The notes under the pieces were generated by a model, which saw only the letters and a list, made by a program, of their open reading frames with translations, had not been told where the DNA came from and searched no databases. A stretch of DNA of 31,282 nucleotides from a virus. Numbering within the stretch: the first letter of the stretch is position 1; every line of letters starts with the position of its first letter. The DNA lies in IMG/VR virus record IMGVR_UViG_3300032285_004294, positions 1 through 31,282 of that record, one strand, 5' to 3'. The translations under genes and the position numbers were made by a program. Of the stretch, positions 13,278 to 30,388 are shown piece by piece.

Positions 13278-13622
13278 ATGAAAGATTCTAGAATTGGTGA
13301 GTCCCTATGGTTTGAATGGGATGGTAGTGGTTTTGAACCATCGTATCCCAGTTCTAATATTTACTATACTGAAGGTACGGTAGATCTAGAGCCAGATATT
13401 GTTAGAAAAGCATTAGCATCTTCTTTACAAAGAGATGGGATTGCAATATCCCTAGCTAATGCTTTTATGATGTTAAATTCTTCAGTAGTAACTTATGGTT
13501 ATGCTGGAATTTTAGATGATGAAGTGTATCAAACGGTTTGCGATATAGATGGATTTACCCAGACTGGTGAAAAAGTAGATTCTGTTACCGCTGCTACCTG
13601 GGTAGAGGTGCTGGACTTTTGA
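13278..13622 (+). CDS. Hypothetical protein (114 aa)
   Basis: An acidic 114-residue protein starting MKDSRIGESLWFEWDG, with an aromatic-rich first third, a possible helix near LASSLQRDGIAISLANAFMML and an acidic C-terminus. No known family is recognised. The ATG lacks a strong Shine-Dalgarno; the nearest purine run is AGGG about 13 bases upstream. It ends inside the start of the WhiB gene (TTGA overlap), which suggests the two are expressed together. Confidence 0.6.
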   Translation: MKDSRIGESLWFEWDGSGFEPSYPSSNIYYTEGTVDLEPDIVRKALASSLQRDGIAISLANAFMMLNSSVVTYGYAGILDDEVYQTVCDIDGFTQTGEKVDSVTAATWVEVLDF

Positions 13623-14074
13623 TTGATACTCCAGACTGGCATGAAGATGCTAACTGTGCCATTCCTAAAAACTCAGAGCACATTGATAAATTTTTTGCTA
13701 ATAAACCATCTCAGCAGTATCAAGCAAAAAAATTATGCAATTCATGCCCGGTTAGATTAGACTGTGCTAAATGGGGCCTAGAAAATAAACAAATATGGGG
13801 AATATGGGGCGGATTGACCAACAAACAGATACGTAGAACGCTGTCTGTAAATTGGGAGGGCCAGGAGATGCGCCACAATCGTTTTCCTCTGTGCCCTGGA
13901 TGTAAGGCAAAAACAAGTTCGCTCACTACAAAAACTGTAGAACGCCCTAATGGTGGACGTTGGTCTACTATGAAAATAGTTGAATGCTTAGACTGTAAAT
14001 TTAGCTGGCAAAGTAGAACTAGTGCTAATGCTGTAGAGGCTTATCATGCGCAAGAATCTAAGAAGAAACGCTAA
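13619..14074 (+). CDS. WhiB-like Fe-S regulator with C-terminal zinc ribbon
   Basis: A 151-residue protein. The N-terminal half is a complete WhiB domain: Cys13, then Cys40-x2-Cys43-x5-Cys49 to hold a 4Fe-4S cluster, and the turn motif GIWGG (61-65). WhiB proteins bind the principal sigma factor and control transcription in actinobacteria, and phage copies can reprogram the host. The C-terminal half adds Cys92-x2-Cys95 and Cys123-x2-Cys126, a zinc-ribbon pattern that ordinary WhiB proteins lack. The start is TTG, overlapping the previous stop, with AGAGGTG about nine bases ahead. The last 17 bases overlap the convergent glycosyltransferase gene. Confidence 0.92.
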   Translation: MIDTPDWHEDANCAIPKNSEHIDKFFANKPSQQYQAKKLCNSCPVRLDCAKWGLENKQIWGIWGGLTNKQIRRTLSVNWEGQEMRHNRFPLCPGCKAKTSSLTTKTVERPNGGRWSTMKIVECLDCKFSWQSRTSANAVEAYHAQESKKKR

Positions 14075-15125
14075 TAGTATAATACTGTAAATTAGTTTTT
14101 AATCTTTGATCTTCTGGATTTATTTTTACTGCTTCTGTACCATATTCCAATGCTTCGGTGAAAAACCCCATCCGGTATGCTGAAATAGCCGCTAAATCAT
14201 ACGGAAGCTCGTTCCATGCAAATTCTTCGCATAGGTAGTCTAGGGGTTTTTCTTTAATAGAAAGAGCCTCTATTGCACGCCAGTAGCAATTTTGCCAATC
14301 TTCACGATTGTAAAAGTACTGGGCAAGTTCCACTAAAGACTCTCGTCTACCGGGAGACTGATCAATTGCTTTTTCTAACCACTCTCTGGCATTTTCTATA
14401 TCTACTTTCGCAAGATACCTCATCGAGGCAGCTCTCTCCGGAGGCCAAACTGCTGTAGGTAGATCCAAGTGTCGTTTAAATTCTTCTTTTGCCTCTTCAT
14501 GCCTATTGTAGAAGAATAGCTCTCTAGCATAGTAAAAAGCATTACGGTCATCATGAGGATCCTCGACTACAGACTGAGCCAGTAGAGGAAGATACTGGGA
14601 TCTAGGCTTAGAGTTGTCTGGGTGGTGGTGTATTTCTAACCCTACCCAGTATTGGTTTTCTGGATCTGGTCCATATTTAGTCAGTACCTCATGTACTGGA
14701 TGCTTCCACCTATATCCCTTACGGGAATGGATCTTATCTCCGCCATATTGAAGCCCGGGTTCAGTCTCTTCAATATTTTTCCAGTTCCATGTGTACTGGT
14801 ATCTTGGTCTAGTAGCTTTCATACTAAACGCAATCTCTAATTCTTTTCTCCATCCGGGTAAAAGAATCTCATCCATATCTAGTGCTATACAGTAATCAAT
14901 ATCCAATGGTATAGCAGCTAAAGATGCATTACGAGCATCATCAAAACGCCAAGGTCTAATGCCAACTGATATCACATTAATACCTAGGGCTTTTGCTTTT
15001 TCTACCGTTTTATCGGTAGAGCCAGTATCTGCAATTAATAAATAGTCAGCTTCTTTTGCTGACTCAAACCATGGCTCTACAAATTGCTCTTCGTTTAGAG
15101 CAATTGTATATACTGCTACTCTCAT
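14058..15125 (-). CDS. GT2 glycosyltransferase with C-terminal TPR-like repeats
   Basis: A 355-residue protein. Residues 1-110 form a GT-A nucleotide-sugar domain: YTIALNEEQFVEPW at the N-terminus, ADTGSTDKT for nucleotide binding and the metal-binding DMD at 83-85 (ALDMDEILLPGW). The second half consists of helical pairs of TPR type (NAREWLEKAIDQSPGRRESL and following). Such GT2-TPR proteins transfer sugars in surface polysaccharide or protein glycosylation. The ATG overlaps the stop of the upstream kinase-like gene as TAATG. A TPR scaffold could hold a protein acceptor such as a virion fibre, but this is only inference. Confidence 0.85.
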   Translation of the reverse strand: MRVAVYTIALNEEQFVEPWFESAKEADYLLIADTGSTDKTVEKAKALGINVISVGIRPWRFDDARNASLAAIPLDIDYCIALDMDEILLPGWRKELEIAFSMKATRPRYQYTWNWKNIEETEPGLQYGGDKIHSRKGYRWKHPVHEVLTKYGPDPENQYWVGLEIHHHPDNSKPRSQYLPLLAQSVVEDPHDDRNAFYYARELFFYNRHEEAKEEFKRHLDLPTAVWPPERAASMRYLAKVDIENAREWLEKAIDQSPGRRESLVELAQYFYNREDWQNCYWRAIEALSIKEKPLDYLCEEFAWNELPYDLAAISAYRMGFFTEALEYGTEAVKINPEDQRLKTNLQYYTISVSS

Positions 15126-15874
15126 TAAAGACCAATCTCTTTTCTCTTCTGAGTCGCTGAAATACTTTGCAGTTCTGGACTTAGTTCAATTTTTTCAATT
15201 TGATATCCGACATCCCTGCCATAGATTATATTTGTAATATTAGGAACTCTCATTGTCAGAGCATTTTGACGATAATCTTTGATATAGTTCACTACCTCGG
15301 CATGGCTGAGAGGATCTTTTTCTGAAGTTCCCTGCGTATCCCTCACGGCAATTAAAACTTGACCGGTCTTCTCTAGGCCAACCTCGTATAGGGCATCATG
15401 ACCCTCATGCCAAGGTTGATATCTGCCAAGCATTAAAGTGGTCGGTTTCTTCCAGTCGTGTAATCTAGCTGCAGACATTACTACAGTTACTTCAGATGCT
15501 AGATCCATTCCACTAATAATTTGAATATCAACATTATCCGGATCTTCCCAGAGTAGGTTAGTATCAGCAAATCTGCTTTCATTAATTCTATTTATCCACA
15601 CGGCGATATCGGATTTTCCAAAAGCCTCTCTAGTTGCCAAGGTTGGGTTTACAAAATCAACAAGTACCACATGCCCTTGAGCGGATAAAAGTCTAGCAAT
15701 AGCCCCTAGCCGGCGAGCTTGCTCTACCCTATCTTCTATAGAGAATCCTAGATCCGAGCTTAAATCACCTCTAACTTCATCTGCATTTAGGTGTATTGCT
15801 GGAGTGTGTTTTAATAGCTCTTTACATAGAGTAGTTTTACCGGATCCAGGTAGTCCAAAGAAAAGAATAATCAT
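15125..15874 (-). CDS. APS-kinase-like / HxGH nucleotidyltransferase fusion
   Basis: A 249-residue two-domain protein. Residues 1-145 resemble adenylylsulfate kinase: P-loop GLPGSGKTT (7-15), then LNADEVR, SDLGFSIEDRVEQARR and FVNPTLATRE, aligned with the CysC signatures. The usual phosphorylated Ser of the FISP motif is Asn here. Residues 146-249 resemble a small nucleotidyltransferase with GRYQPWHEGH and ISATQKRKE, the HxGH and ISxTxxR signatures of NMN or cytidylyl transferases. The order, kinase then transferase, is that of animal PAPS synthetase, but the second domain is much shorter than ATP sulfurylase. It may activate sulfate, make NAD from ribosylnicotinamide or build a sugar nucleotide. 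Confidence 0.8.
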   Translation of the reverse strand: MIILFFGLPGSGKTTLCKELLKHTPAIHLNADEVRGDLSSDLGFSIEDRVEQARRLGAIARLLSAQGHVVLVDFVNPTLATREAFGKSDIAVWINRINESRFADTNLLWEDPDNVDIQIISGMDLASEVTVVMSAARLHDWKKPTTLMLGRYQPWHEGHDALYEVGLEKTGQVLIAVRDTQGTSEKDPLSHAEVVNYIKDYRQNALTMRVPNITNIIYGRDVGYQIEKIELSPELQSISATQKRKEIGL

Positions 15875-15888
15875 AGTCCTCTAACCGT

Positions 15889-17094
15889 TCACCTTACTGG
15901 AAGCACGCTTAAAAATTCTCGTGGATCAAAGTCTCCACCAAAAACCATAGTTAAAAGCCCTGGTTTAGATGATTGCCCAGCTTTATCTCTGTACCATTCT
16001 GATCCCGGATCAGTAGTTGGGCACTGGCACCACAAACGCTCTCCTACATCCATAGTACGGAAGTTGTGGAAGTGACCGGAAATCCAAATATCAGCATGGC
16101 CTAGAGCAGTCTTACCTAGAGACTGCCCTGATAGGTACTTTTCAATATTATTTTGATTAGCCTGGTGGCCGTGAAATAGTCCAACGTGAGTGCCGCAGAT
16201 TTCTGTAACTAGGGTCTGGTGTCCCGAAGATGGAAACCTAAACTCTACGTTAGCTAGTGCTGGATTTTCTGCGCAAGCATCTTGTACTGCAGATGCAATT
16301 TCTGTATTCCATCCGTCAGCAGGATCGGCAGCAACTTGACGAGTAGCTTCATCATGGTTTCCATTAATCACAGGAACTATCATTCGTTCAGCGAGGGGAG
16401 CATGTGCTTTTATCTGCGCCATTAACAAACGACGTGCAACACGTACCTGCTCAGTGATTCCAAGATCCGATGCAGCTAAACCTTGAAGACGTCCGTTCTG
16501 AGATACATTACCTTCGACGTGATCTCCCGGAAGTCCTAGAGTTATTGTTCCTAGGCCTAGTCCCATTTTTTGATACATCTTGTATCGATTAACTGATTTT
16601 TCTGTTAGTTCTAGAATTCTATCTATTGATTGCTGAGTTCCACCATCCCCATTCTTTTTACCAATCTGCTGGTCGCTTGGAAATAGCCCATAGGATGCAT
16701 TTCCTGTTGATTGTTTGATACCGCGTTCTGGACGCCACTTTTTAATCTCATCCACTAGTTTTTCGGCATCGAGTCTAGCATCTAGACTATCTAGGCCAGT
16801 AGCTGGTGTTAGATTTAGCCGCTGAGATTCTAGATATTCTCCATCGTATCTCTGCCACTTCCCCATGCGCATGGATGTGATAATCCATTCATCCGGGTGC
16901 AAATCATAATCTTCTAAAATTCCCTTAGAATCTTGAGATTGTCCAGCTGGGCGTGGCTTAGAGATTACAAAGCCACCTTTTACCGTGTCTACATCCATTC
17001 GTGGACGCCAGTCTTCTGGAATATTCATTGATTTAATATCTGATCCAGATTTTCCTGGACTTGCAAGTTTTTCTAGCTTTTCTGATAAGCCCAC
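15889..17094 (-). CDS. Calcineurin-like metallophosphoesterase
   Basis: A 401-residue phosphoesterase. Metal-binding motifs appear in order: SDQQIGK near residue 139 (the usual DxH with Gln in place of His), PGDHVEG, NGNHDE near 242, LFHGHQ, and SGHFHNF near 340. The first 130 residues are a less conserved extension that includes W-R-P-x-x-G motifs. Phage proteins of this type are predicted nucleases or phosphatases related to SbcD/Mre11. The start is GTG two bases after the stop of the upstream small gene, with no evident Shine-Dalgarno, so coupled translation is likely. The specific substrate is unknown. Confidence 0.85.
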   Translation of the reverse strand: MGLSEKLEKLASPGKSGSDIKSMNIPEDWRPRMDVDTVKGGFVISKPRPAGQSQDSKGILEDYDLHPDEWIITSMRMGKWQRYDGEYLESQRLNLTPATGLDSLDARLDAEKLVDEIKKWRPERGIKQSTGNASYGLFPSDQQIGKKNGDGGTQQSIDRILELTEKSVNRYKMYQKMGLGLGTITLGLPGDHVEGNVSQNGRLQGLAASDLGITEQVRVARRLLMAQIKAHAPLAERMIVPVINGNHDEATRQVAADPADGWNTEIASAVQDACAENPALANVEFRFPSSGHQTLVTEICGTHVGLFHGHQANQNNIEKYLSGQSLGKTALGHADIWISGHFHNFRTMDVGERLWCQCPTTDPGSEWYRDKAGQSSKPGLLTMVFGGDFDPREFLSVLPVR

Positions 17095-20672: not shown

Positions 20673-20795
20673 ATGCAACAGAATACGGATAAAAGACCAT
20701 CGTGCAAATGTTCAATTTGCGGAGAAGTTTTTGTAGTTCAATCTTTGGCTAGAATATGCGAAGATAAGCACTCTAAGGAACTAAAATCTAATTAA
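20673..20795 (+). CDS. Small Cys-rich protein (40 aa), possible zinc finger
   Basis: A 40-codon frame starting at ATG. Cysteines at CKCSIC and later at RICEDKH, with a His, could form one zinc knuckle. The tail is Lys-rich. It fills the gap between the primase stop and the convergent oxygenase gene, and its last four bases overlap that gene's stop. The Shine-Dalgarno is weak (TAGGTAA, about 12 bases ahead). The call is supported by composition and fit only. Confidence 0.5.
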   Translation: MQQNTDKRPSCKCSICGEVFVVQSLARICEDKHSKELKSN

Positions 20796-21382
20796 GATTT
20801 CCAAAAAATCGGAGCCATATACTTTTCTCCAGATACTATAATCTTAGATTCGTGAGTGTATGGTGAAATCGATGGAAATACTACAATGCTTCCAGCATCG
20901 GGCTTAATCTGTATTTTCTGATTAGGAAAATTTATTTCCCCGCCTTCATAATCATCATTTAGATATAACACTGCTGAAATAAGCGGATTAATGTTAGAAA
21001 CTCCGTAATCATCTACATGCGGTCCCATATAGGCGCCTGTTACGTATTTAGATATGCTAGATAGGCTAGCGTATGGCAGCTCTATGTTGCACTCTACCGC
21101 GTAGTGCTTAGCTACATCTTTTATGGCATTTTGTAAAGTATTATATACATATAAATCTGCCTCGCTGGCTTCACTATATTTATTAATATCTATATTTTTT
21201 TTATATCCAAATATATAACTATTAATGCCACTGGTTTTCCAAGAATTCCAGTCTGATATTAAACTATATTGACTTGTTCCATCTCGAGGTTCCTCTAATA
21301 ATTTTAAAATTCCCTGAGGATCATTTATTACATTTTTATAATAAAAAATATTTGGATCGAGTTTTTTAAAATTAAACACCAT
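20792..21382 (-). CDS. 2OG-Fe(II) dioxygenase 1, P4H-like
   Basis: A 196-residue oxygenase. The iron ligands are His122, Asp124 and His177, and the 2-oxoglutarate-binding residue is Lys187 (GPHVDDYG, YTHES, SGEKY). The core strand motif LYLNDDYEGGE is shared with the other oxygenases here. The frame extends upstream to 21487, but that start would overlap the next gene by 116 bases. The ATG at 21382 overlaps by 11 and begins right before the conserved part. Lys as the 2OG anchor is typical of prolyl 4-hydroxylases. It is the last gene of the leftward oxygenase run. Confidence 0.9.
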   Translation of the reverse strand: MVFNFKKLDPNIFYYKNVINDPQGILKLLEEPRDGTSQYSLISDWNSWKTSGINSYIFGYKKNIDINKYSEASEADLYVYNTLQNAIKDVAKHYAVECNIELPYASLSSISKYVTGAYMGPHVDDYGVSNINPLISAVLYLNDDYEGGEINFPNQKIQIKPDAGSIVVFPSISPYTHESKIIVSGEKYMAPIFWKS

Positions 21383-22031
21383 TTTTTGAGTTCCAGCCTT
21401 CTCTCTGTATAGCTTGTTCGGCTCGAACTCTTTTAAACTCTTCTTCCCACTCTGCACGTCTTTCCTCAGAGTATTCAGCTTCAGCATAGTCCCAGAAAGA
21501 GACCATGGTATATCTGGTTCCTTCGATTATTTCGGTCACTGAATGCACGTTTTCTATACCTCCTGGAAATGTAATAAACATCCCTGATTCTGGAGCAATA
21601 GATAAATTATGATCTCTAAAGTTTAAATTTCCACCATCATAGTTACGATTTAAATATAATATGCCAACATATTTATTTATTTCAAATGCATTTGGGTTAC
21701 CATCAAAGTCGGAATTATCAGAGTGATCATTGGCATAAGCTCCAGTTTCCCATTTTTGGGCGTGGGATGTATTTGCTTTGACGTCCCTACCGTGCGCCTC
21801 AATTACAGCTTGCTTAAATCTTTCTTTTAAATCTAAAAAGAATGTCTCACCTAATCCAAATTTTGGCAGCTCTGGATCTATTTCAGCGATTCCCATGCCA
21901 TAGGATTGATAGAATGCTACATCGCCCCAGAAGTCACTCTTAGATTCAAAGTACTCTATCATATTTTTGCAGGTATCTTCCGATACAAAATTTTCATAAT
22001 AGATAACGTCATCTTTAAAGTATTTTTTCAT
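21372..22031 (-). CDS. 2OG-Fe(II) dioxygenase 2, with acidic tail
   Basis: A 219-residue oxygenase. The iron ligands are His103, Asp105 and His163, and Arg173 anchors 2-oxoglutarate (NDHSDN, NVHSVT, EGTRY). The N-terminal strand reads IYYENFVSEDTCKNMIEYFE. After the domain, residues 184-219 form a charged helix (SEERRAEWEEEFKRVRAEQA) not seen in the other four, possibly a docking element. The ATG lies one base beyond the aldo/keto reductase stop, so these two are translated in close succession. Confidence 0.9.
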   Translation of the reverse strand: MKKYFKDDVIYYENFVSEDTCKNMIEYFESKSDFWGDVAFYQSYGMGIAEIDPELPKFGLGETFFLDLKERFKQAVIEAHGRDVKANTSHAQKWETGAYANDHSDNSDFDGNPNAFEINKYVGILYLNRNYDGGNLNFRDHNLSIAPESGMFITFPGGIENVHSVTEIIEGTRYTMVSFWDYAEAEYSEERRAEWEEEFKRVRAEQAIQREGWNSKNGV

Positions 22032-22032
22032 T

Positions 22033-23022
22033 TTATCTCTTTGCTAGTCTATTTATAGGGCTGGAGTTTAACAATGTCTCTTCTGAGGTATCGGATACAT
22101 CGCTAAGTATATTATTAATTTTCTCTACCATACTATGATCTATGGATTCTATATTAGTAGCTATCTCAGCTAGTTGTTCTGGAGTTCTGGCTCCTACCAC
22201 TGCGGTGGAGATATTTGAATTACTTAATACCCAAGAAACCATCATTTGAGCAGTAGTTTTGTCGATTGACTTAGATAATTCATGCAATTTTAAAACGGAG
22301 TCTATAGTTCTCTCATTTAAAATATTATTTAAATAATTTGTACTATTACCCCTAACATCCTGAGCAGAAGTTGGGTATTTCCCAGATAGGATCCCCTGGG
22401 CAAGCGGTGAAACCGCCATCTGAGAAATTCCTAGTTCTTTGCATAGAGGTATTAATGAATTTTCTGCATACCTAGCTAGTCCGGAATATCTAACCTGACT
22501 AGTTATAAATTTACTGTAAGCTAATTTTTTTTGATATTCAACTGCATTAGATATTTCTTCGGTAGTCCATTCTGATACGCCTATGTATAGAACCTTACCG
22601 GCGTTTATTAAATACTGATATGTGTCTAATGTTTCTTCAATTGGAGTTAAATTATCATATCTATGAGCTATATAGATATCAATATAGTCAGTTTTTAGAC
22701 GCTTAAGAGATGAATTGACTGAATCAATAATATGTTTTCTAGATAGCCCACTGCCGTTTGGACCACTTCCGGTATTAAAAAATGACTTAGTGGAGATTTC
22801 GTAGTTACTTCTTTTTTTAGTTCCTAGCACGGTACCAAGAAGTGACTCAGCTGATCCACCGCCGTATACATCAGCGGTATCAAACGTGGTAATTCCTAAA
22901 TCTAGTGCTGTCTTAATGCAAGATACTAAGTTATCTTCAGACATCCACTCATTTACTCCCCAGGTTCCATAGGATATTTCTGATACATATAAGCCAGAAT
23001 TTCCTAGCTTTCTATATTGCAT
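22033..23022 (-). CDS. Aldo/keto reductase
   Basis: A 329-residue NAD(P)H-dependent reductase. The AKR catalytic tetrad is complete: Asp48 and Tyr53 (FDTADVYGGG), Lys79 (ISTKSFF) and His120 (IYIAHRYD). Nucleotide-binding elements follow (GVSEWT, and near the C-terminus VVGARTPEQLAE). The frame runs to 23040, but the ATG at 23022 gives the TAATG overlap common in this genome, so it is preferred. AKRs reduce aldehydes and ketones, including sugars. It lies inside an oxygenase run, and a partnership in which an oxidised product is reduced again is possible but speculative. Confidence 0.92.
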   Translation of the reverse strand: MQYRKLGNSGLYVSEISYGTWGVNEWMSEDNLVSCIKTALDLGITTFDTADVYGGGSAESLLGTVLGTKKRSNYEISTKSFFNTGSGPNGSGLSRKHIIDSVNSSLKRLKTDYIDIYIAHRYDNLTPIEETLDTYQYLINAGKVLYIGVSEWTTEEISNAVEYQKKLAYSKFITSQVRYSGLARYAENSLIPLCKELGISQMAVSPLAQGILSGKYPTSAQDVRGNSTNYLNNILNERTIDSVLKLHELSKSIDKTTAQMMVSWVLSNSNISTAVVGARTPEQLAEIATNIESIDHSMVEKINNILSDVSDTSEETLLNSSPINRLAKR

Positions 23023-23639
23023 TAATCCTCGATCATCCAAAAATATCTTCCGAAATACTTATTACCGGACTCAATTAGTTTAGAGGTGTGGTAGTAAGGT
23101 TCTCCAGATGGGAAAATAACTACTGATCCAGCTGCTGGTTTATATTCAACTCCAAAGCTATCAAATACTAATTCTCCGCCTATATAGTCTTCATTTAAAT
23201 AAATAGTGGTAGTGATTAGGGGACGAGGGTTTTGATTTTCTCCCATGGCATCGACGTGAGACGGCATAATTCCGCCTTCATAGTAAAGATGGAAAGATGG
23301 ATCTACTTTAAAGATATTTTTATAGTTTAAAGAGTGTCTTTTCATATAATCTGCAGTTGCTATCTCAAATGCTTCGTTCAATCTGTCTATGACATGTTTT
23401 GAATTTTGGTAGCCAGGCAAAGAAGCATCAACCAGATGTAATGGGTTGAGCTTACGCTCTTTTCCGTAGATTGCATTAGATGAGTTATCTCCGGGGTGCC
23501 AGTCTTCCCAGTTAGCTAGGGGCAACTTATTAGATTCAGAGTAGCTATTTTTAACTACTGATATAAGATCCTCTATGTCCGGTAGGAGGTTTGGATATAT
23601 ATCTACTCCCGGAGCAATTTCAAAAAAATCTTTATTCAT
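23022..23639 (-). CDS. 2OG-Fe(II) dioxygenase 3, P4H-like
   Basis: A 205-residue oxygenase. Iron ligands His128, Asp130 and His184 and the 2OG anchor Lys194 are visible (MPSHVDAMG, YYHTSK, SGNKY). The shared core IYLNEDYIGGEL precedes KPAAGSVVIFPSG. Its C-terminal layout is closest to oxygenase 1 (YxHxSKxIxSGxKYxxxxFW). The ATG start overlaps the oxygenase 4 stop by eight bases. The substrate is unknown; see the fibre genes for one candidate. Confidence 0.9.
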   Translation of the reverse strand: MNKDFFEIAPGVDIYPNLLPDIEDLISVVKNSYSESNKLPLANWEDWHPGDNSSNAIYGKERKLNPLHLVDASLPGYQNSKHVIDRLNEAFEIATADYMKRHSLNYKNIFKVDPSFHLYYEGGIMPSHVDAMGENQNPRPLITTTIYLNEDYIGGELVFDSFGVEYKPAAGSVVIFPSGEPYYHTSKLIESGNKYFGRYFWMIED

Positions 23640-24312
23640 TTGAATTATCTTTATGCTTTAAAATAGTCCAAAAGAATGGGCAAGTATATCTAATTCCAGA
23701 GACAACTTCTGTCACTCCATGAATATAGTTCATATCTCCGGGGAAGAAATATGCAAATCCTGCTTTTGGTTTGAATTTAATTCCTTGATTAGGAAAATAC
23801 AACTCCCCGCCCTCATAGTCATCATTCAAATAGAAAAGACTAGCAAGATCATAGTGCGGAAAATCATTTGGTTTACCAGCATTATCTCCTTCATGTAGTT
23901 CTTTATCAGCATGAGGAAGCTGCTTTTGACCTGGAAACCACCTAACAATTGCAGGTGGAGTTGGTTTAGTTTCTTCTAAATTAAAAAAATCTTGAATAAT
24001 TGGCTGTAAAATATTCATTAGATTTTCTATTATTGAATATACCTCTGGTGACTGCTCTGAGAGCCCCTTTGAGGTCAATACTCGATCTTTCCAGTACAAT
24101 GAGTCATAAATTATGGTTCCATCTTCGTTATACTTTGTGATGGTCTCGTCCCATTGTTCTATGGATCTAGCAAAATTGCTCACAATTTCAAGCTCTTCTG
24201 GGGACATGAAGTTTTGTATCTCTACTATATTGTCACTAGAGTCTCCAAAAAAACCAGATGGTGTTATAGAGACGGGCCTATTTTCATTGCCTAGATTTCT
24301 AATTTCTTTCAT
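23632..24312 (-). CDS. 2OG-Fe(II) dioxygenase 4
   Basis: A 226-residue oxygenase. Iron ligands are His134, Asp136 and His198, and Arg208 anchors 2-oxoglutarate (LPHADKEL, YIHGVT, SGIRYT). The shared strand LFYLNDDYEGGELYFPN is almost the same as in oxygenase 1. Compared with the others, a longer loop follows the first ligand pair (LHEGDNAGKPNDFPHYD), which may shape the active-site lid. A gap of 17 bases separates it from the upstream DUF6065-like gene. Arg here and in oxygenase 2 versus Lys in 1, 3 and 5 divides the set in two. Confidence 0.9.
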   Translation of the reverse strand: MKEIRNLGNENRPVSITPSGFFGDSSDNIVEIQNFMSPEELEIVSNFARSIEQWDETITKYNEDGTIIYDSLYWKDRVLTSKGLSEQSPEVYSIIENLMNILQPIIQDFFNLEETKPTPPAIVRWFPGQKQLPHADKELHEGDNAGKPNDFPHYDLASLFYLNDDYEGGELYFPNQGIKFKPKAGFAYFFPGDMNYIHGVTEVVSGIRYTCPFFWTILKHKDNSNE

Positions 24313-24329
24313 TATTGAATCCTATCATG

Positions 24330-25061
24330 CTAAGAATATACTCGTCGTTCCCAGACTTTTTTCTGGTATATACCACCATTCGGGACTCGATATATGTCCC
24401 TATTTTCTATATTTTTATTATAAATTTCTTCATAATTATTATTAATCTCTATTTCAGATTGCCAATCTTCTCTTTTAAATGGCAGTAACTGTGCGTACGG
24501 CGTTCCCGCTGGAATTACTCCAGTAAAACCTTCTGCTATAAAAAATGGCATTGTACCTGGAAGATTTACCTTATCGTTATCTACAATTCCGCTGGTGCTT
24601 ATAAATGGTAGTTCATATCTATTCATTGGGCTGGTGTACAGTACACTATATCCCTCTGGAACCTGAACTCCCCAATCTACCCACCAAGCAAAATGATCTG
24701 CATAGTACCCACGTGGGTGCACAAACTGAGGCATTGCTGCTCTAGGGGCACAAAAATCTTTAAACTGCGGATCTAAGATTTTTACAGAAATTTTACTATT
24801 TTCATCTAGAAAAAATTCTATGTCGCATGGAGTCTTTAATACATATCCAGTACCCATTACATCAAATACAGCCGGGCATGCTTTCCAGGTTGGAATTTTT
24901 CCACCATCCGGGCCTACCCAGGGCTCCTCGGTGTTTGGATCTATTGCAAATCTATCTGCCTCCCTGTACCACCCCGGCAACGTTTTCATGGTGGGGGATG
25001 GCTTAGATGAGCTGTCATCAGTTAGCCAAGCTCTATTAGCTATAAATCTAATTAAGTTCAT
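24330..25061 (-). CDS. Conserved phage hypothetical, DUF6065-like plan
   Basis: A 243-residue protein without catalytic signatures. Conserved-looking blocks are IPTWKACPAVFDVMGTGY, the aromatic ADHFAWWVDWG, YSVLYTSPMNRYELPF and VIPAGTPYAQLLPFKRE. The plan (a Cys-Pro block, a central P-M-N-R-x-E-L-P strand and a late A-G-T-P-x-A-x-L-L-P strand) parallels the next gene and DUF6065, suggesting tandem relatives of a beta-rich, possibly cupin-like fold. The start overlaps the upstream gene by 14 bases and has GGAAAG seven bases ahead. The function is unknown. The repeated association with oxygenases is what makes it interesting. Confidence 0.65.
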   Translation of the reverse strand: MNLIRFIANRAWLTDDSSSKPSPTMKTLPGWYREADRFAIDPNTEEPWVGPDGGKIPTWKACPAVFDVMGTGYVLKTPCDIEFFLDENSKISVKILDPQFKDFCAPRAAMPQFVHPRGYYADHFAWWVDWGVQVPEGYSVLYTSPMNRYELPFISTSGIVDNDKVNLPGTMPFFIAEGFTGVIPAGTPYAQLLPFKREDWQSEIEINNNYEEIYNKNIENRDIYRVPNGGIYQKKVWERRVYS

Positions 25062-25785
25062 CCACAGTCTTTCCAGTGATGGGGCAGATATTTGTTTTTA
25101 GTCTTATTGATTTTACTTCATGTTTTCCAGCAGATGTGCCATCATGATTTACTGCATCACGATACATCTTCGACCAATCAGACTGACTATTTTTATCTGA
25201 AGCAATTTTTCCGTATTCTCTTACTTTTTGAAAATACTCATCTCCAAGGTATTCGCTTTTAATATTTACTTCATATTCTAGATTTAATGCCCCTACTGAT
25301 AGCGGAAGTATTGCAGCTACAGGGGTGCCTGCTTTGATAGTAATTTTTTTATTTGCTTGAGTTATTTGCCACGCTAGTGGAAAATTTGGCATATAAAAAG
25401 AGGTGCTCATTACCGTTGTAAAGCACTGGGCACCTTCCGTAAATAAGTTTGGTACTGGCATTGTTAGAATTGATGTATTTTCATCTGTCCTAATTACAAT
25501 TCCAGTTATGAAGCTAATAGTTCCGTGCGCTCTTCCGGTATATACATAATCATGGCCTTCTAGGACTGTCACGTGGTGAGGCTCACTACTAATAACCCCA
25601 TCCCAAATAAAGCTAATGTCTTCTGGAAAAGATATTCCCCAGCCTAGGCCGTTAGTTAGTGTTATTGGAAAGCACATATAGGCATGCCTATCGTGGGTGT
25701 TATCCATCCACTCTCTAGTTACCGGTAGTGGCTCTACATTGGCTGACTTACTATTATTAGTCTTGTAGATATCTATAGAGTGCAA
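25048..25785 (-). CDS. DUF6065-like protein
   Basis: A 245-residue protein that fits DUF6065: REWMDNTHDRHAYMCFPITL near the N-terminus, then GLGWGISFPEDISFIWDG, a central beta region, and late KAGTPVAAILPL. The C-terminus has a helix and a closing NICPITGKT with one Cys. DUF6065 proteins have no established function that I know of. The fold looks beta-rich. It sits between oxygenase 5 and a remote relative, overlapping the latter by 14 bases, and so belongs to the same transcript. A ligand-binding or substrate-presenting role for the oxygenases is an inference only. Confidence 0.7.
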   Translation of the reverse strand: MHSIDIYKTNNSKSANVEPLPVTREWMDNTHDRHAYMCFPITLTNGLGWGISFPEDISFIWDGVISSEPHHVTVLEGHDYVYTGRAHGTISFITGIVIRTDENTSILTMPVPNLFTEGAQCFTTVMSTSFYMPNFPLAWQITQANKKITIKAGTPVAAILPLSVGALNLEYEVNIKSEYLGDEYFQKVREYGKIASDKNSQSDWSKMYRDAVNHDGTSAGKHEVKSIRLKTNICPITGKTVDELN

Positions 25786-25787
25786 CT

Positions 25788-26492
25788 CTAACTACCTGTC
25801 TCTACCCTATGTTCTGGTTTATGAAACTTATCGCTATAGTCCAACATCGTGACTATTGAATATTTAAACCCGCTCTCCACTGGCATCGCTTGATGTGGGT
25901 ACATAAAGTTAGATGGGAATAGGTATAGATCTCCAGCCTGCGGCCTTATTTTTAAATTATTTAGTCTAAAGAATAGCTCGCCACCCTCATAATTATCATT
26001 TGGGTATGCCACTGCTGATAGGGTGCAATTATAGGAATATCCGGCATCGTGGTGCTCCATAAAATGCTGTCCTGGACCATACTTAATAAAATTCATGGCC
26101 TCCCAGTAACGAAGTTCCATGATGTTGTATCTATTACAATAGTCCTTAACTGCCTGAAGAATTCTATAGTGAACATCATCCCAAAGTTTTTGGAGTTTCA
26201 AAGAATCTTCAGATAAGTCTTTCTCAAGATCAGTCTTTTTGTATTTAAAATCAAAGCAATCTCTGTATTTAGGCATTTTCATCCTATATCCAACGAAGCC
26301 TTCGCTATAGCTGTAATCATTATCCGAGCTATTTAATACTTCTTCTAATCTAGAGATGACATTTAATTCTTCAGGTATTACATCTCTATAGACCCAGATA
26401 CCTGGGGCAAGTTCTTCCGAGGCACCCCAAGTGATTTCATCTATTGTTCTAAATGCCTTGGCTCTTTCTTCTAATTCCTCGATGCTGTCCAT
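25788..26492 (-). CDS. 2OG-Fe(II) dioxygenase 5, P4H-like, first of the run
   Basis: A 234-residue oxygenase. Iron ligands His147, Asp149 and His200 and 2OG anchor Lys210 are visible (MEHHDAGYS, YPHQAM, SGFKYS). The shared strand reads AYPNDNYEGGELFF. A His-rich tail (DKFHKPEHRV) follows. It is the first gene of the leftward run, beginning about 67 bases after an intrinsic terminator, so it probably has its own promoter. Its spacing to the next gene is two bases. The distant similarity to the other four points to early duplication or separate acquisition rather than a recent tandem copy. Confidence 0.9.
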   Translation of the reverse strand: MDSIEELEERAKAFRTIDEITWGASEELAPGIWVYRDVIPEELNVISRLEEVLNSSDNDYSYSEGFVGYRMKMPKYRDCFDFKYKKTDLEKDLSEDSLKLQKLWDDVHYRILQAVKDYCNRYNIMELRYWEAMNFIKYGPGQHFMEHHDAGYSYNCTLSAVAYPNDNYEGGELFFRLNNLKIRPQAGDLYLFPSNFMYPHQAMPVESGFKYSIVTMLDYSDKFHKPEHRVETGS

Positions 26493-26527
26493 ACTAATTC
26501 CTATCTGTAACTAAGGTAGTTTACTTG

Positions 26528-26533
26528 AGTATA
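26528..26533 (-). promoter_or_regulatory. Possible -10 for the oxygenase run
   Basis: On the minus strand TATACT lies about 36 bases before the ATG at 26492, downstream of the terminator. No good -35 matches 17 bases upstream, so support is weak. AAGAAC on the same strand (plus-strand GTTCTT near 26540) recurs in the other leftward intergenic gaps. Confidence 0.3.
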
Positions 26534-26558
26534 CATGTAGTTCTTGTATTTTTTATAA

Positions 26559-26584
26559 AAAAAAGGACCTTTCGGCCCTTTTTT
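26559..26584 (-). terminator. Intrinsic terminator of the fibre genes
   Basis: On the minus strand AAAAAAGGGCC pairs with GGTCCTTTTTT around a GAAA tetraloop, followed by a T run. One pair is G-U. In the plus direction the same position is an A-C mismatch, so it works best leftwards. It lies about 20 bases after the stop of the FN3 gene and separates fibre genes from the oxygenase run. Confidence 0.85.
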
Positions 26585-26601
26585 ATATAAATATTTACAG
26601 T

Positions 26602-27297
26602 TTAAGTAAAGTATGGTGGGAAATAAGGTCCAAAACCTGGAGGAAAGAACGGAGGGAAGAACGGAGGAAAAAATGGGGTATAAGTGGTAACGCTATTTGA
26701 TGACGCAGACTGAGCTGAGGTGCCATTGGCGTTAGTAGCAGTAACTTTGTATGTCTGGGTAGTTCCACCGGTTTCTGTAATTGTTTTTGGTGAAGTTGAG
26801 TTCGGGTATGTAGGACCATCTGACGATATTACTGTATAACTAGTAATAGCTGATCCACCGGTAGCAGGGGCTGTCCAACTAACAACATCTTGGTTAATTA
26901 CAGTAGAAGTTGCTGTAGGAGCTGCTGGAGCTGCTGGTACTGTAGTAATGCTAACGGAAGATGATGTTGTTCCGGCAGCAGATCCGCCAGAATTTGAAGC
27001 TACTACCGTAAAGGTATATGAGGTCGCAGATGCTAGACCTTCAAAAGTATAGCTAGTTGATGATGTGGTCTTTGTTACTGTAGTCGGGGTTGTTGTAATG
27101 GTATACAAAGTTGCTGCAGGAGATAGTGCTGGTAGTGACCAAGATAGGTTAGCTGCTCCACCCTGTCCAGCGGTTCCATTAGCAGTAAGTAGATATGGTC
27201 TACTTGTTCCAACGTTAGTAGCCGTTAGACTAGTTACTGATAGTGGTTGTAGAAAATCATTCGCTTGTTGCGAGTGGCGTCCTGCTCTTTTACTCAT
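26602..27297 (-). CDS. FN3-domain virion protein with FFPP-repeat tail
   Basis: A 231-residue protein with two fibronectin type III domains (about 20-118 and 119-206; TLYTITTTP, ATSYTFTVVASNSG, AITSYTVISSDG, TYKVTATNANGTS). It ends in a striking 25-residue tail (207-231) with FFPPFFPPFFPP followed by GFGPYFPPYFT; ten of the 25 residues are proline and nine are phenylalanine. The tail is encoded by three 12-base tandem units (26639-26674). FN3 domains in phage often sit on the capsid or tail and bind surface carbohydrates. The start is ATG with GGGAGAG ahead. The proline-rich tail is the most obvious candidate target for the hydroxylase-like genes next door. Confidence 0.8.
   Translation of the reverse strand: MSKRAGRHSQQANDFLQPLSVTSLTATNVGTSRPYLLTANGTAGQGGAANLSWSLPALSPAATLYTITTTPTTVTKTTSSTSYTFEGLASATSYTFTVVASNSGGSAAGTTSSSVSITTVPAAPAAPTATSTVINQDVVSWTAPATGGSAITSYTVISSDGPTYPNSTSPKTITETGGTTQTYKVTATNANGTSAQSASSNSVTTYTPFFPPFFPPFFPPGFGPYFPPYFT
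26639..26674. repeat. Three 12-base tandem units in FN3 gene
   Basis: GGAGGAAAGAAC, GGAGGGAAGAAC and GGAGGAAAAAAT follow each other. Each encodes one Phe-Phe-Pro-Pro on the minus strand. The unit is a multiple of three, so slippage would change the repeat count without shifting the frame. Confidence 0.85.
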
Positions 27298-27314: not shown

Positions 27315-29837
27315 TTAAGCTGTTAAATCACCGTAGGCAATCCAAGTGTTAGCTGATCTCTTCAATAGTGTAGCAGATGACCATTGAGTACGAAGCTTTA
27401 GACCTGGAGTTGCATTTATTGTTGTCGAGAATGTGATGGTACCAGATACCTGAGATGAGATTGCAGGTGAAACTGTAATTGTTGTACCAGATACGTTAGT
27501 GACTACAGTATTAGCTGCAAAACCGGTTCCTGTCACAGTTTGTCCTACTCCAATTGCAGAGTTAGATGAAGCAATAATAAATGTAGTTGCAGCAGAGGCA
27601 CCACCAGATGAATATGTTGAAGTGGTAGTTGCTGGAGTTATTGTCATCTGCCCGGCACCAGTCTGAATTAGATCTAGGCTAGACCCAGTAGGGAAACTTA
27701 GCGTAGAATCTAGCGGAACTGTTAGGGTATTTGCAGAAGCATTGCTAATTTCAATTACAGTGTCACGTTCAGTTACGGCAGCTAGTGTGTATGATGCTAC
27801 CTTCTGTGAAATTGTAGTTAGTGAAGGAACTCCAGCTACAGTCTGAACTGTACCATTAGAAAAAGTGAGTCCAGAAGATGAAAGTGTAGCTGTTCCAGTA
27901 AAGGTTGGAGTATCAATGGTTGGAGAGGTTGCTAGTACTGCTGATCCGGTACCAGTGATAGCACCAAAGTCAGTGTAACCGTACTCCCAGTCGGCAGCTG
28001 TAGTTAGTGATGTTCCAACGCAGGTAGCCATCACGGTCATGTTTGCTGGAATGGTTGCAACTAGGTTTCCACCAGAGCTGTTTACGGTTAAGGCTCCAGT
28101 CGAGTTGTTAACAATGTGGAATGTCCAACCCTGTGTAAGAGTGCTAGTTACAGGAAGCACTACAGTCTGAGTAGTTGTTCCAGTAAACAACTGGTATACA
28201 GAACTTGATGCAGTAAGTGTTGTGCTTCCAGCAGCTGTAGCAGTTGAAGTATATCCAAAGGTATTTGCATTTAGTCTTGGATATGTGATTGAGCTTAGTA
28301 GACCACCTGAGGTAGTTGTAACAACTCCAGCAGTAGTTAGTGGGGTTGTAACTGATCCAGTAAAGGTTGGGCTAGCAAGTGGAGCATATGTAGAAGCAGC
28401 GGTAGCTGAGGCAAGCTTAGTACCTAACTGGGTCTGAATTGAGGAAGTAACTCCAGACAGGTACCCAATTTCAGTGTTAGTTACGCTTCCAATTGTTGCA
28501 GAAGTTGCTTCTAGAGCGCCAATCTTTAGAGTATCGTATGTTGCACCAGTGAAATCTATAGTAGTTGTAGGCTCGTTGACAACGTTAGAGAATAGCTTCC
28601 ATTTACCATCGCTAGCATCTCGAACAATACCGGTGTGCTGATAGGTTCCATCATTGAAATGTCCTACAATACCAATATCTACTGAGTTAGCTGAGTTACC
28701 GGTTCCAATGTAGATAAGTGGGTCAGTAACAGATAGATCGGTAGTTGATACCGTGGTAGTAGTACCGTTTACAGTAAAGTCACCAGAAATAACTAGATTT
28801 CCACCAATATATGCGTTCTTGGCTACGCCCAAACCACCGGCGGTCTTTACAGATCCAGAAGTAGTGGTAGTTGACTGGGTTGTGTCTGATACAACTACTG
28901 CTCCAGTAAATGTTGATCCTGAAAGAGCAGCATATGTAGAAGCAGCGGTAGCTGAAGCTAGCTTCGCGTCAAGCTGAGTCTGAATTGCAGAAGTTACGCC
29001 ATCTACATAACCGATCTCAGTTGCAGATACGTTACCAATTGAAGTAGTACTTGGAAGAACTACAGTACCGGTGAAGGTAGGTGCTGCAAGTGGGGCATAT
29101 GTAGAAGCAGCGGTAGCTGAAGCTAGCTTCGCGTCAAGCTGAGTCTGAATTGCAGAAGTTACGCCAGATACATATCCAAGTTCAGTTGAATTAGTCAAAG
29201 ATACTGCAACTTTACCGGAAGTATTTGAAACCAAAACTCTAGAAGTGGTTAGGTCAGCTCCGGTAATGGTAGTCGCTGCTCCAGTGATGGTATCTTGTTT
29301 ACCACCCAGCTGAGTCTGAATTGAAGAGGTAACTCCGTCTAGATATCCGAGCTCAGTTGAGCTGACGGATCCAATAGTAGTAGTGCTAGGAAGCACTACT
29401 GATCCAGTAAATGTAGGAGCCGATAGGGGGGCTTTAGTATCAAGCTGAGCCTGAATCGGAGAAGTTACACCAGATAGTCGTCCGAGCTCATTGGAGCTAA
29501 CATCGCCAACTGATGTAGTAGTAGGTAGAGTAACGGTACCTGAGAAGGTTGGGTCAGATAGCGTTGCATATTCTGCTAAGTTTGGTTGATCTATCCATTC
29601 AACTTCGTAGTTGCCAGTTCCACTTTTTGCTAGAATTTGACCGGTATTTCCACCTGGGATAAGAGCATTTCCAGATAAAAGTGCTCCATACTGGAGTTGC
29701 GACCATGTGGAGCTTCCTGTACCTAGTTTAAATTTTCTAGTATCAGTCTCGAAGCCAAGCTCTCCTGCAGCAAGAGTAGGATTCGATGAAGTCCAGTTAG
29801 CTGCAGTATCGCGTCTAAATTGAATTTGAATAGCCAT
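27315..29837 (-). CDS. Long repetitive tail fibre (840 aa)
   Basis: The N-terminus (IQFRRDTAANWTSSNPTLAA, then GELGFETDTRKFKLGTGSS) is a common fibre-start module that probably joins the fibre to the virion. The next 280 residues are tandem units of about 55 residues, each with TFTGxVxLPSTTxIG, then ELGYxxGVTSxIQTQLDAK and LASATAASTYAPL. Six copies of the GVTS block can be counted. A middle block, about 340-430, has TVNGTTTTVSTTDLSVTDPL and GIVRDASDGKWKLF. The C-terminus is beta-rich and Ser/Thr-heavy, without a recognised enzyme. The ATG overlaps the upstream stop as TAATG. A host-range fibre is the likely role. Confidence 0.85.
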   Translation of the reverse strand: MAIQIQFRRDTAANWTSSNPTLAAGELGFETDTRKFKLGTGSSTWSQLQYGALLSGNALIPGGNTGQILAKSGTGNYEVEWIDQPNLAEYATLSDPTFSGTVTLPTTTSVGDVSSNELGRLSGVTSPIQAQLDTKAPLSAPTFTGSVVLPSTTTIGSVSSTELGYLDGVTSSIQTQLGGKQDTITGAATTITGADLTTSRVLVSNTSGKVAVSLTNSTELGYVSGVTSAIQTQLDAKLASATAASTYAPLAAPTFTGTVVLPSTTSIGNVSATEIGYVDGVTSAIQTQLDAKLASATAASTYAALSGSTFTGAVVVSDTTQSTTTTSGSVKTAGGLGVAKNAYIGGNLVISGDFTVNGTTTTVSTTDLSVTDPLIYIGTGNSANSVDIGIVGHFNDGTYQHTGIVRDASDGKWKLFSNVVNEPTTTIDFTGATYDTLKIGALEATSATIGSVTNTEIGYLSGVTSSIQTQLGTKLASATAASTYAPLASPTFTGSVTTPLTTAGVVTTTSGGLLSSITYPRLNANTFGYTSTATAAGSTTLTASSSVYQLFTGTTTQTVVLPVTSTLTQGWTFHIVNNSTGALTVNSSGGNLVATIPANMTVMATCVGTSLTTAADWEYGYTDFGAITGTGSAVLATSPTIDTPTFTGTATLSSSGLTFSNGTVQTVAGVPSLTTISQKVASYTLAAVTERDTVIEISNASANTLTVPLDSTLSFPTGSSLDLIQTGAGQMTITPATTTSTYSSGGASAATTFIIASSNSAIGVGQTVTGTGFAANTVVTNVSGTTITVSPAISSQVSGTITFSTTINATPGLKLRTQWSSATLLKRSANTWIAYGDLTA
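28930..29166. repeat. Two identical 72-base repeats inside the fibre gene
   Basis: 28930-29001 and 29095-29166 are identical over 72 bases and lie 165 bases (55 codons) apart. A third, more diverged version begins near 28384. They encode the AKLASATAASTYA part of the fibre repeats. Recombination between them would delete or add one 55-residue unit in frame. Confidence 0.85.
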
Positions 29838-30388
29838 TAGTTGCTCGCACTTCCGCCGTCGATAGTTGTTAAAATTCCATTGTAATTTGAGGAGGCATTC
29901 CCACCATCAATATTACCATAAGCTGCTCCCGCTGCTCCGGTTGCACCAGTCGGACCAGTTGCACCAGTCGAACCAGTTGCGCCCTGAGGGCCAACAATCT
30001 GCCCGACGCTGTGCCATGAAGAGCCGCTCCAAACATAAAGGTCACCGTCAGCATCAACGATATATGCATCATTAATTGAATTACCTGAACTAGGCAAATC
30101 ACCAACAGTTGCTACTGATCCAATAAAATTGATATTGGTTCCCTGAGGTCCGGTTGGACCGGTTGCACCAGTAGGTCCAGTTACGGTTGAAGCTGCACCA
30201 GTTGCACCTGTAGCACCGGTAGCTCCAGTTGGACCAGTTGCACCAGTTGGACCGGTTGGACCAGTCGGGCCCGATACAGTTTGAGTAGCTGCAGCATCCC
30301 AGGTGGTGCCGTTCCAAATCCAAGTCCTATTACCAGAGGTAAATGTCTCGTTTAGATTAGGACTGTTTGGGAAATCAATAGCTGACAC
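29837..30388 (-). CDS. Collagen-like virion protein
   Basis: A 183-residue protein. The N-terminal [20 protein letters not shown] and the central [20 protein letters not shown] are short aromatic beta modules common in phage fibres. Between and after them are collagen triplets: 40-66, 71-83 and 133-156, 21 Gly-X-Y triplets in all. Pro occurs only at X (nine times) and Thr fills Y in 16, as in the glycosylated GPT repeats of Bacillus spore collagens. Such regions form triple helices and stiff fibre necks. The start is GTG with a strong GGAGG six bases ahead. The stop overlaps the next start as TAATG. Confidence 0.88.

Follow-up and report, generated by a model that had tools for sequence, protein, structure and literature searches.

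Gene content of the array

The IMG/VR virus record IMGVR_UViG_3300032285_004294 (31.3 kb, GC 42%; its positions 1 to 31,282 are referred to as the window throughout) carries eight head-to-tail genes on the minus strand at 26492-20792. Five of them, OxA to OxE, encode 2-oxoglutarate (2OG)- and Fe(II)-dependent oxygenases that resemble prolyl 4-hydroxylases (P4Hs), and the others an aldo/keto reductase (AKR) and two related proteins, DUFa and DUFb. Directly upstream of OxA lies a gene for a protein composed of an fn3 domain and a tail of Phe-Phe-Pro-Pro (FFPP) repeats. We propose, as a rather likely reading of this locus, that OxA-OxE hydroxylate this fn3-FFPP protein of the phage itself, and thus form a fibre-maturation cassette of uncultured tailed phages. 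From upstream to downstream, the genes are:

26602..27297, minus strand: fn3-FFPP protein, 231 aa, fn3 domain (PF00041, E 8e-11) followed by the C-terminal repeat YTPFFPPFFPPFFPPGFGPYFPPYFT; proposed substrate
25788..26492, minus strand: OxA, P4H-like 2OG-Fe(II) oxygenase, first of the array (PF13640, E 2.9e-13), with orthologues in relatives
25048..25785, minus strand: DUFa, DUF6065 protein (PF19541, E 1.6e-30) with a predicted dUTPase-like beta fold
24330..25061, minus strand: DUFb, paralogue of DUFa (PHROG 7084; phrog_7084, E 2.7e-33)
23632..24312, minus strand: OxB, P4H-like oxygenase (PF13640, tree, AF2 model), the most conserved position
23022..23639, minus strand: OxC, divergent P4H-like oxygenase (PF13640, E 1.2e-8) on a long branch, with unsure placement in the tree
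22033..23040, minus strand: aldo/keto reductase (PF00248, E 9e-65), an insertion peculiar to the window phage
21372..22031, minus strand: OxD, P4H-like oxygenase (PF13640; clade of 24 rows, support 99)
20792..21487, minus strand: OxE, P4H-like oxygenase, last of the array (PF13640, E 1.9e-10), grouping with last-position genes of relatives

An earlier sequence-only reading of this DNA had described the eight leftward open reading frames (ORFs) from OxA to OxE, and their position and composition were confirmed. All five oxygenases exceed the curated cut-off of PF13640, each scoring above 27 bits, and contain no internal stops. The AKR matches PF00248 with 219 bits and by inspection retains the D-Y-K-H tetrad (FDTADVYG, ISTKS, IAHR), DUFa matches PF19541, and DUFb, without a Pfam match of its own, shares PHROG 7084 with it. 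The claim that neighbouring genes are mostly separated or overlapped by less than 20 bases held for gaps of 1-17 bp and overlaps of 8-19 bp, with the exception of OxE and OxD, where taking the longest OxE ORF gives an overlap of 116 bp. From an internal ATG (MVFNFKK...), this overlap shrinks to ~10 bp, and the true OxE start is probably internal; likewise, the AKR ORF, which starts at a TTG, probably includes a few surplus codons. The fn3-FFPP gene, the upstream neighbour of the array, was absent from that reading, and the cluster is better drawn with this gene as its upstream end.

Active sites and fold of the oxygenases

The active-site residues, namely the HxD motif, the distal His and the Lys or Arg anchor after the SG motif, read HVD/H/K, HSD/H/R, HVD/H/K, HAD/H/R and HHD/H/K in the five enzymes. 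Across 250 related array oxygenases, the iron triad is likewise unbroken, the first His being present in 100%, the Asp in ~100% and the distal His in 98%. Together with the structure model of OxB, the only oxygenase modelled, this bears out the notion of intact active sites and speaks against broken geometry.

The OxB model (AlphaFold2, AF2; predicted local distance difference test, pLDDT, 89.5) shows the double-stranded beta-helix of the 2OG-Fe(II) oxygenase superfamily and gave 561 Foldseek matches in the PDB at E <= 0.001, led by prolyl hydroxylases. The best were the viral collagen prolyl hydroxylase (vCPH) of PBCV-1 (E 5e-12) and a Chlamydomonas P4H. A profile built from the five oxygenases matched the solved structures of PKHD hydroxylases, human P3H1, Bacillus anthracis P4H and PBCV-1 P4H. 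Because both the profile matches and the fold neighbours of OxB are mostly prolyl hydroxylases, we infer prolyl hydroxylation to be the leading candidate reaction of OxA-OxE. As an aside, the labels 'ferrochelatase' and 'DNA endonuclease' of PHROG 3531, 2297 and 274, which match the oxygenase domain of array proteins, are probably misnomers.

Conservation of the array among relatives

Scanning IMG/VR with DUFa yielded 211 relatives, from which 80 loci were kept. In nearly all of these, the order OxA-DUFa(-DUFb)-OxB-OxC-OxD-OxE is preserved, so that the genes are not scattered independently among relatives. Five to eight oxygenases per locus are usual and eleven the maximum, with lower counts mostly on truncated contigs. 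In a tree of 146 array oxygenases from 21 representative loci, OxB proteins from 21/21 loci formed one clade (support 100), as did the OxD-like genes (24 rows, support 99). The OxA sets were well supported and those of OxC and OxE less certain. Since the positions resolve into orthologous clades, the array is, on this tree, old, and its members are diverged positions rather than recent duplicates.

The AKR was not found in any of the ~80 array loci, and its two relatives among viral contigs both occurred without arrays. We hence rejected the AKR as a pathway member, contrary to the earlier suggestion, and by gene content it is an accessory gene peculiar to the window phage.

Linkage between the array and the FFPP repeat

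What might the array act upon? The fn3-FFPP protein ends in FFPPFFPPFFPPGFGPYFPPYF, and relatives carry comparable runs at the same place (PFFPPFFPPFFPPFFPP, PYFPPYFPPFFPP, GFFAPPGFFAPPGFF). In these repeats, FF precedes PP 1,171 times, and Phe/Tyr are as abundant as Pro. We assessed the association from both sides. Of 50 array loci with at least 2.5 kb of upstream DNA, 48 had a same-strand ORF with an aromatic-proline repeat whose end lies no more than 3.5 kb upstream, as compared to 1/5,215 control-locus ORFs. Conversely, an independent DNA-pattern scan for FFPPFFPPFF returned 72 loci in which the repeat was in frame and the downstream sequence extended for 3 kb or more; within these 3 kb, 58 loci had an oxygenase and 46 two or more. 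Among the controls, an adjacent oxygenase was seen in 0/80 loci encoding collagen-type (GPA)n repeats and for 1/512 other ORFs; a neutral control scan gave 9 loci only and adds little. After dereplication, the contrast was 36/48 FFPP clusters versus 0/80 collagen loci (Fisher p 8e-22). The linkage is thus a feature of the aromatic-proline repeat in particular: lying near fibre genes is not enough for a locus to have the array, and collagen was rejected as the linked substrate.

Whole-record searches agreed. PF13640 was present somewhere in 18 of 26 FFPP records, which had been picked because no array was apparent nearby or their sequence was truncated, with 6-10 copies in most of the longer ones, as opposed to 2/40 collagen-control records, where the sole array-bearing record was also the sole FFPP-bearing one. 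In 59/113 cases, at most 133 bp separate the FFPP stop from the start of the first oxygenase.

Features of the fibre region

The FFPP gene and the array lie in the tail-fibre region of the window, which further comprises:

27315..29837, minus strand: Mtd_N-type tail fibre (PF18454, E 6.7e-16), conserved gene immediately upstream of fn3-FFPP
29837..30388, minus strand: small collagen-like tail-fibre protein with GPTGPTG repeats (PF01391, E 1.6e-8), alternative substrate
26493..26601, minus strand: strong RNA hairpin AAAAAAGGGCC GAAA GGTCCTTTTTT between the FFPP gene and OxA (RNAfold -26.6 kcal/mol, z -4.3)

The order of Mtd_N-type fibre gene and FFPP gene recurs in five relatives (L010, L014, L015, L016, L126). 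The hairpin, not listed by the pattern scanner, is a probable terminator or attenuator and may set different expression levels for substrate and enzymes.

Some relatives encode a Hint/intein-like domain C-terminal to the repeat (by weak matches to Pfam; 29/148 by a rough C-terminal pattern), for example at L014:6957-8333, L023:2896-4224 and L036:3806-5011. Such a domain could cleave the repeat tail or couple it covalently. PASTA-like domains, again by weak Pfam matches, occur in a second class of proteins with FFPP/FFAPP repeats (L044:580-2964, L175:7641-9287), which suggests cell-wall binding. Between the FFPP gene and the oxygenases of L114, L144 and L164, and of L071, L139 and L203, we noticed by eye TlpA/peroxidase-like (GNIPQH) or sulfotransferase-like (LHIPKTAG) genes, which could represent further repeat-modifying steps.

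Proposed function and alternative explanations

The sequence-only reading had suggested that the oxygenases successively oxidise one polymer or several fibre residues. Several active oxygenases acting on fibre residues fit our data well; in place of its unspecified polymer, the neighbourhood offers a specific candidate, the adjacent FFPP-repeat protein encoded beside the tail fibre. In the mechanism we envisage, the five enzymes, each non-redundant, would hydroxylate the tandem aromatic-proline repeat, most likely at proline C3 or C4 (with Phe or Tyr as secondary candidates), with a separate position or sequence context for each enzyme. This would yield a hydroxyproline-rich fibre tail that is more polar, cross-linkable or a glycan acceptor and that, displayed on the virion, might mediate adsorption. 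More tentatively, and with the odds against it, the locus might constitute a phage-evolved hydroxyproline-rich protein system, in which 5-11 hydroxylases, each specialised by position, turn a self-encoded (F/Y)FPP-repeat fibre protein, fused in some relatives to the putatively cleaving or coupling Hint/intein-like domain, into a surface polymer that is patterned, perhaps also adhesive or cross-linked, and without known counterpart.

Several observations weigh against hydroxylation of the FFPP protein. A prolyl-hydroxylase-like fold also occurs in enzymes with other substrates (PKHD/PiuC, EGLN). Given the hairpin between the FFPP gene and OxA, strict co-transcription may fail. A few FFPP records of 37-38 kb (G001, G011) lack PF13640, although they may be incomplete. 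Oxygenase counts and repeat lengths are uncorrelated (Spearman 0.04, p 0.73); we therefore rejected the idea of dosage, whereby longer repeats would need more oxygenases, and argue for specificity instead. Lastly, the loci could all descend from a single phage lineage and have inherited the association together with a common tail module. Speaking against this, the gap genes, the types of repeat and the first oxygenases vary among loci, and a few genomes harbour a second FFPP gene with its own downstream oxygenase (L021, L022, L063).

Alternatively, the enzymes might act on molecules of the host surface or elsewhere (peptides, teichoic or capsular glycans, lipids) or on fibre-displayed sugars, with the FFPP protein merely sharing a host-interaction module. 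The location of the module in the tail-fibre region, the sulfotransferase- or TlpA-like genes seen by eye after some FFPP loci, and a glycosyltransferase gene in the window (14058-15125) would all suit this idea, which we nonetheless judge unlikely, as the linkage singles out the aromatic-proline repeat over collagen-type fibre-like loci and the fold of OxB is nearest to peptidyl-prolyl hydroxylases. The latter likewise argues against oxidation or cross-linking of Phe or Tyr instead of Pro, as in 2OG-dependent peptide maturation, to give an adhesive aromatic tail. We consider this distinctly improbable, despite a Phe/Tyr content of the repeats that equals that of Pro and a weak match of OxD to the cyclophane-peptide oxygenase YhhC, which at 19.6 bits falls far under the cut-off of 150.

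That the oxygenases act on collagen-like or other fibre proteins rather than on the FFPP protein would be in line with the GPTGPTG protein at 29837-30388, a GPQGPAGPTG protein adjoining the array in some relatives, and the link of PBCV-1 P4H to collagen in viruses (PMC9301287). Yet oxygenases neighbour FFPP genes and practically never the (GPA)n genes of viral contigs, and PF13640 is rare in whole collagen-control records, making this explanation very unlikely. We give hardly any credence to the notion that the oxygenases are auxiliary metabolic genes that draw down 2OG, rewire host nitrogen or carbon metabolism, or repair nucleic acids. Such roles were put forward for cyanophage 2OG oxygenases (PMC3037559), but bulk 2OG turnover needs no 5-11 conserved, divergent, fixed-order orthologues beside fibre genes, the fold neighbours are peptidyl hydroxylases, and the repair enzyme AlkB is absent from the top Foldseek list of OxB.

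Relation to known systems

Hydroxylation of the FFPP protein would have a parallel in plants and algae, where several P4Hs act on short Pro-rich tandem repeats during maturation of hydroxyproline-rich glycoproteins. The Chlamydomonas P4H matched by OxB (2jig; 3gze with a Ser-Pro peptide) belongs to this context, whereas its repeats are of the SP/SPPPP rather than the FFPP type, and the phage combines enzymes and candidate substrate in one locus. Among viruses, the closest likeness is to PBCV-1 vCPH (PDB 5c5t/5c5u), a viral 2OG oxygenase and the best Foldseek match of OxB. It is, however, a single enzyme of a eukaryotic algal virus with ~18% identity, whereas the phages have 5-11 divergent enzymes in linkage with an aromatic-proline repeat. 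Together with the 4-hydroxyproline of viral proteins (Eriksson 1999, as cited in PMC9301287), the PBCV-1 P4H is the closest published precedent. Human P3H1 and B. anthracis P4H match in the core region, including the YLN(D)D(Y)xGG and H...K/R motifs, but are cellular, single-gene enzymes with other substrates.

Cyanophages encode up to five 2OG-Fe(II) oxygenases per genome (PMC3037559). These enzymes (PHROG 61, 3531) share superfamily and PHROG with those of the array; in the two isolate regions inspected, however, they stand alone, without an array, DUF6065 or an adjoining fibre gene. Phage 2OG oxygenases have been explained as genes for nitrogen control or DNA repair (PMC3037559), the viral use of 2OG-Fe(II) oxygenases and P4H-like genes 'remains cryptic' (PMC9301287), and their purpose in phages was likewise left open elsewhere (PMC12774648). 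In the open literature searched, we found no description of the arrays, of DUF6065 or of the FFPPFFPP repeat, while other papers could exist. 2OG-Fe(II) oxygenases and P4H-like genes are commonly reported auxiliary genes of aquatic phages whose purpose is an acknowledged open question, and the two-way linkage with the FFPP repeat names a concrete, testable substrate. If true, such genes would serve virion maturation and host range instead of metabolism, and the phages would provide a related enzyme set with a natural repeat substrate for studies of site-selective peptide hydroxylation.

The DUF6065 pair

DUFa belongs to the DUF6065 family by a clear margin (106.7 bits versus a cut-off of 26.6 for PF19541), and DUFb has no sequence match in the PDB either. 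The AF2 model of DUFa (pLDDT 78) resembles dUTPases in Foldseek (E 1e-4; template modelling (TM) score 0.36-0.39 by query, 0.64-0.69 by target), and the stretch SGIVDNDK of DUFb (IDxD-like) resembles, by eye only, dUTPase motif 3. Sequence searches did not confirm a dUTPase-like fold for the DUF6065 family, and DUFb matched neither the dUTPase profile nor its motifs. At moderate confidence, DUFa is modelled as a dUTPase-like sandwich. The idea that DUF6065 might be a hidden oxygenase was rejected, given that the DUFa model resembles dUTPase and not the 2OG fold; DUFa and DUFb are probably accessory proteins other than oxygenases, sharing a dUTPase-like fold.

DUFb homologues occur in ~49 records, nearly all from haloarchaeal tailed viruses. 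In the single locus viewed (L355, Halorubrum tailed phage 7, gp38), a thymidylate synthase lies one gene from the DUFb homologue, which is in line with a dUTPase-like fold, albeit suggestive only. Cellular DUF6065 neighbourhoods (Bradyrhizobium, gammaproteobacterial metagenome-assembled genomes (MAGs)) showed no array-family oxygenase within ~10 kb and are uninformative on function. Three gammaproteobacterial MAG contigs (L336-L338) encode a lone DUFb of 60-62% identity, with no array-family oxygenase in the DNA examined.

Virus, host and other genes of the window

The first 25 kb of the window had no nucleotide match among 50,697 phage records, and a cultured representative of the array was not found in the phage collection. 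The nearest named phage isolates lacked matches to DUFa and fn3-FFPP, and the regions viewed held only lone, distant oxygenases. Besides the array, the window encodes a DNA polymerase A, an SNF2-type helicase, a Sak4-like recombination protein, a primase, tail fibres and a WhiB-like regulator (13619-14074), an actinophage marker; according to PMC10202952, WhiB counts as a key indicator of such phages. Because of the WhiB-like gene and the GC content of 42%, a low-GC freshwater actinobacterium appears plausible as the host. A separate minus-strand cluster at 14058-17094 comprises the above-mentioned glycosyltransferase, which bears a TPR-like tail, an APS/polynucleotide-kinase-like protein and an exonuclease-type protein (PHROG 284).

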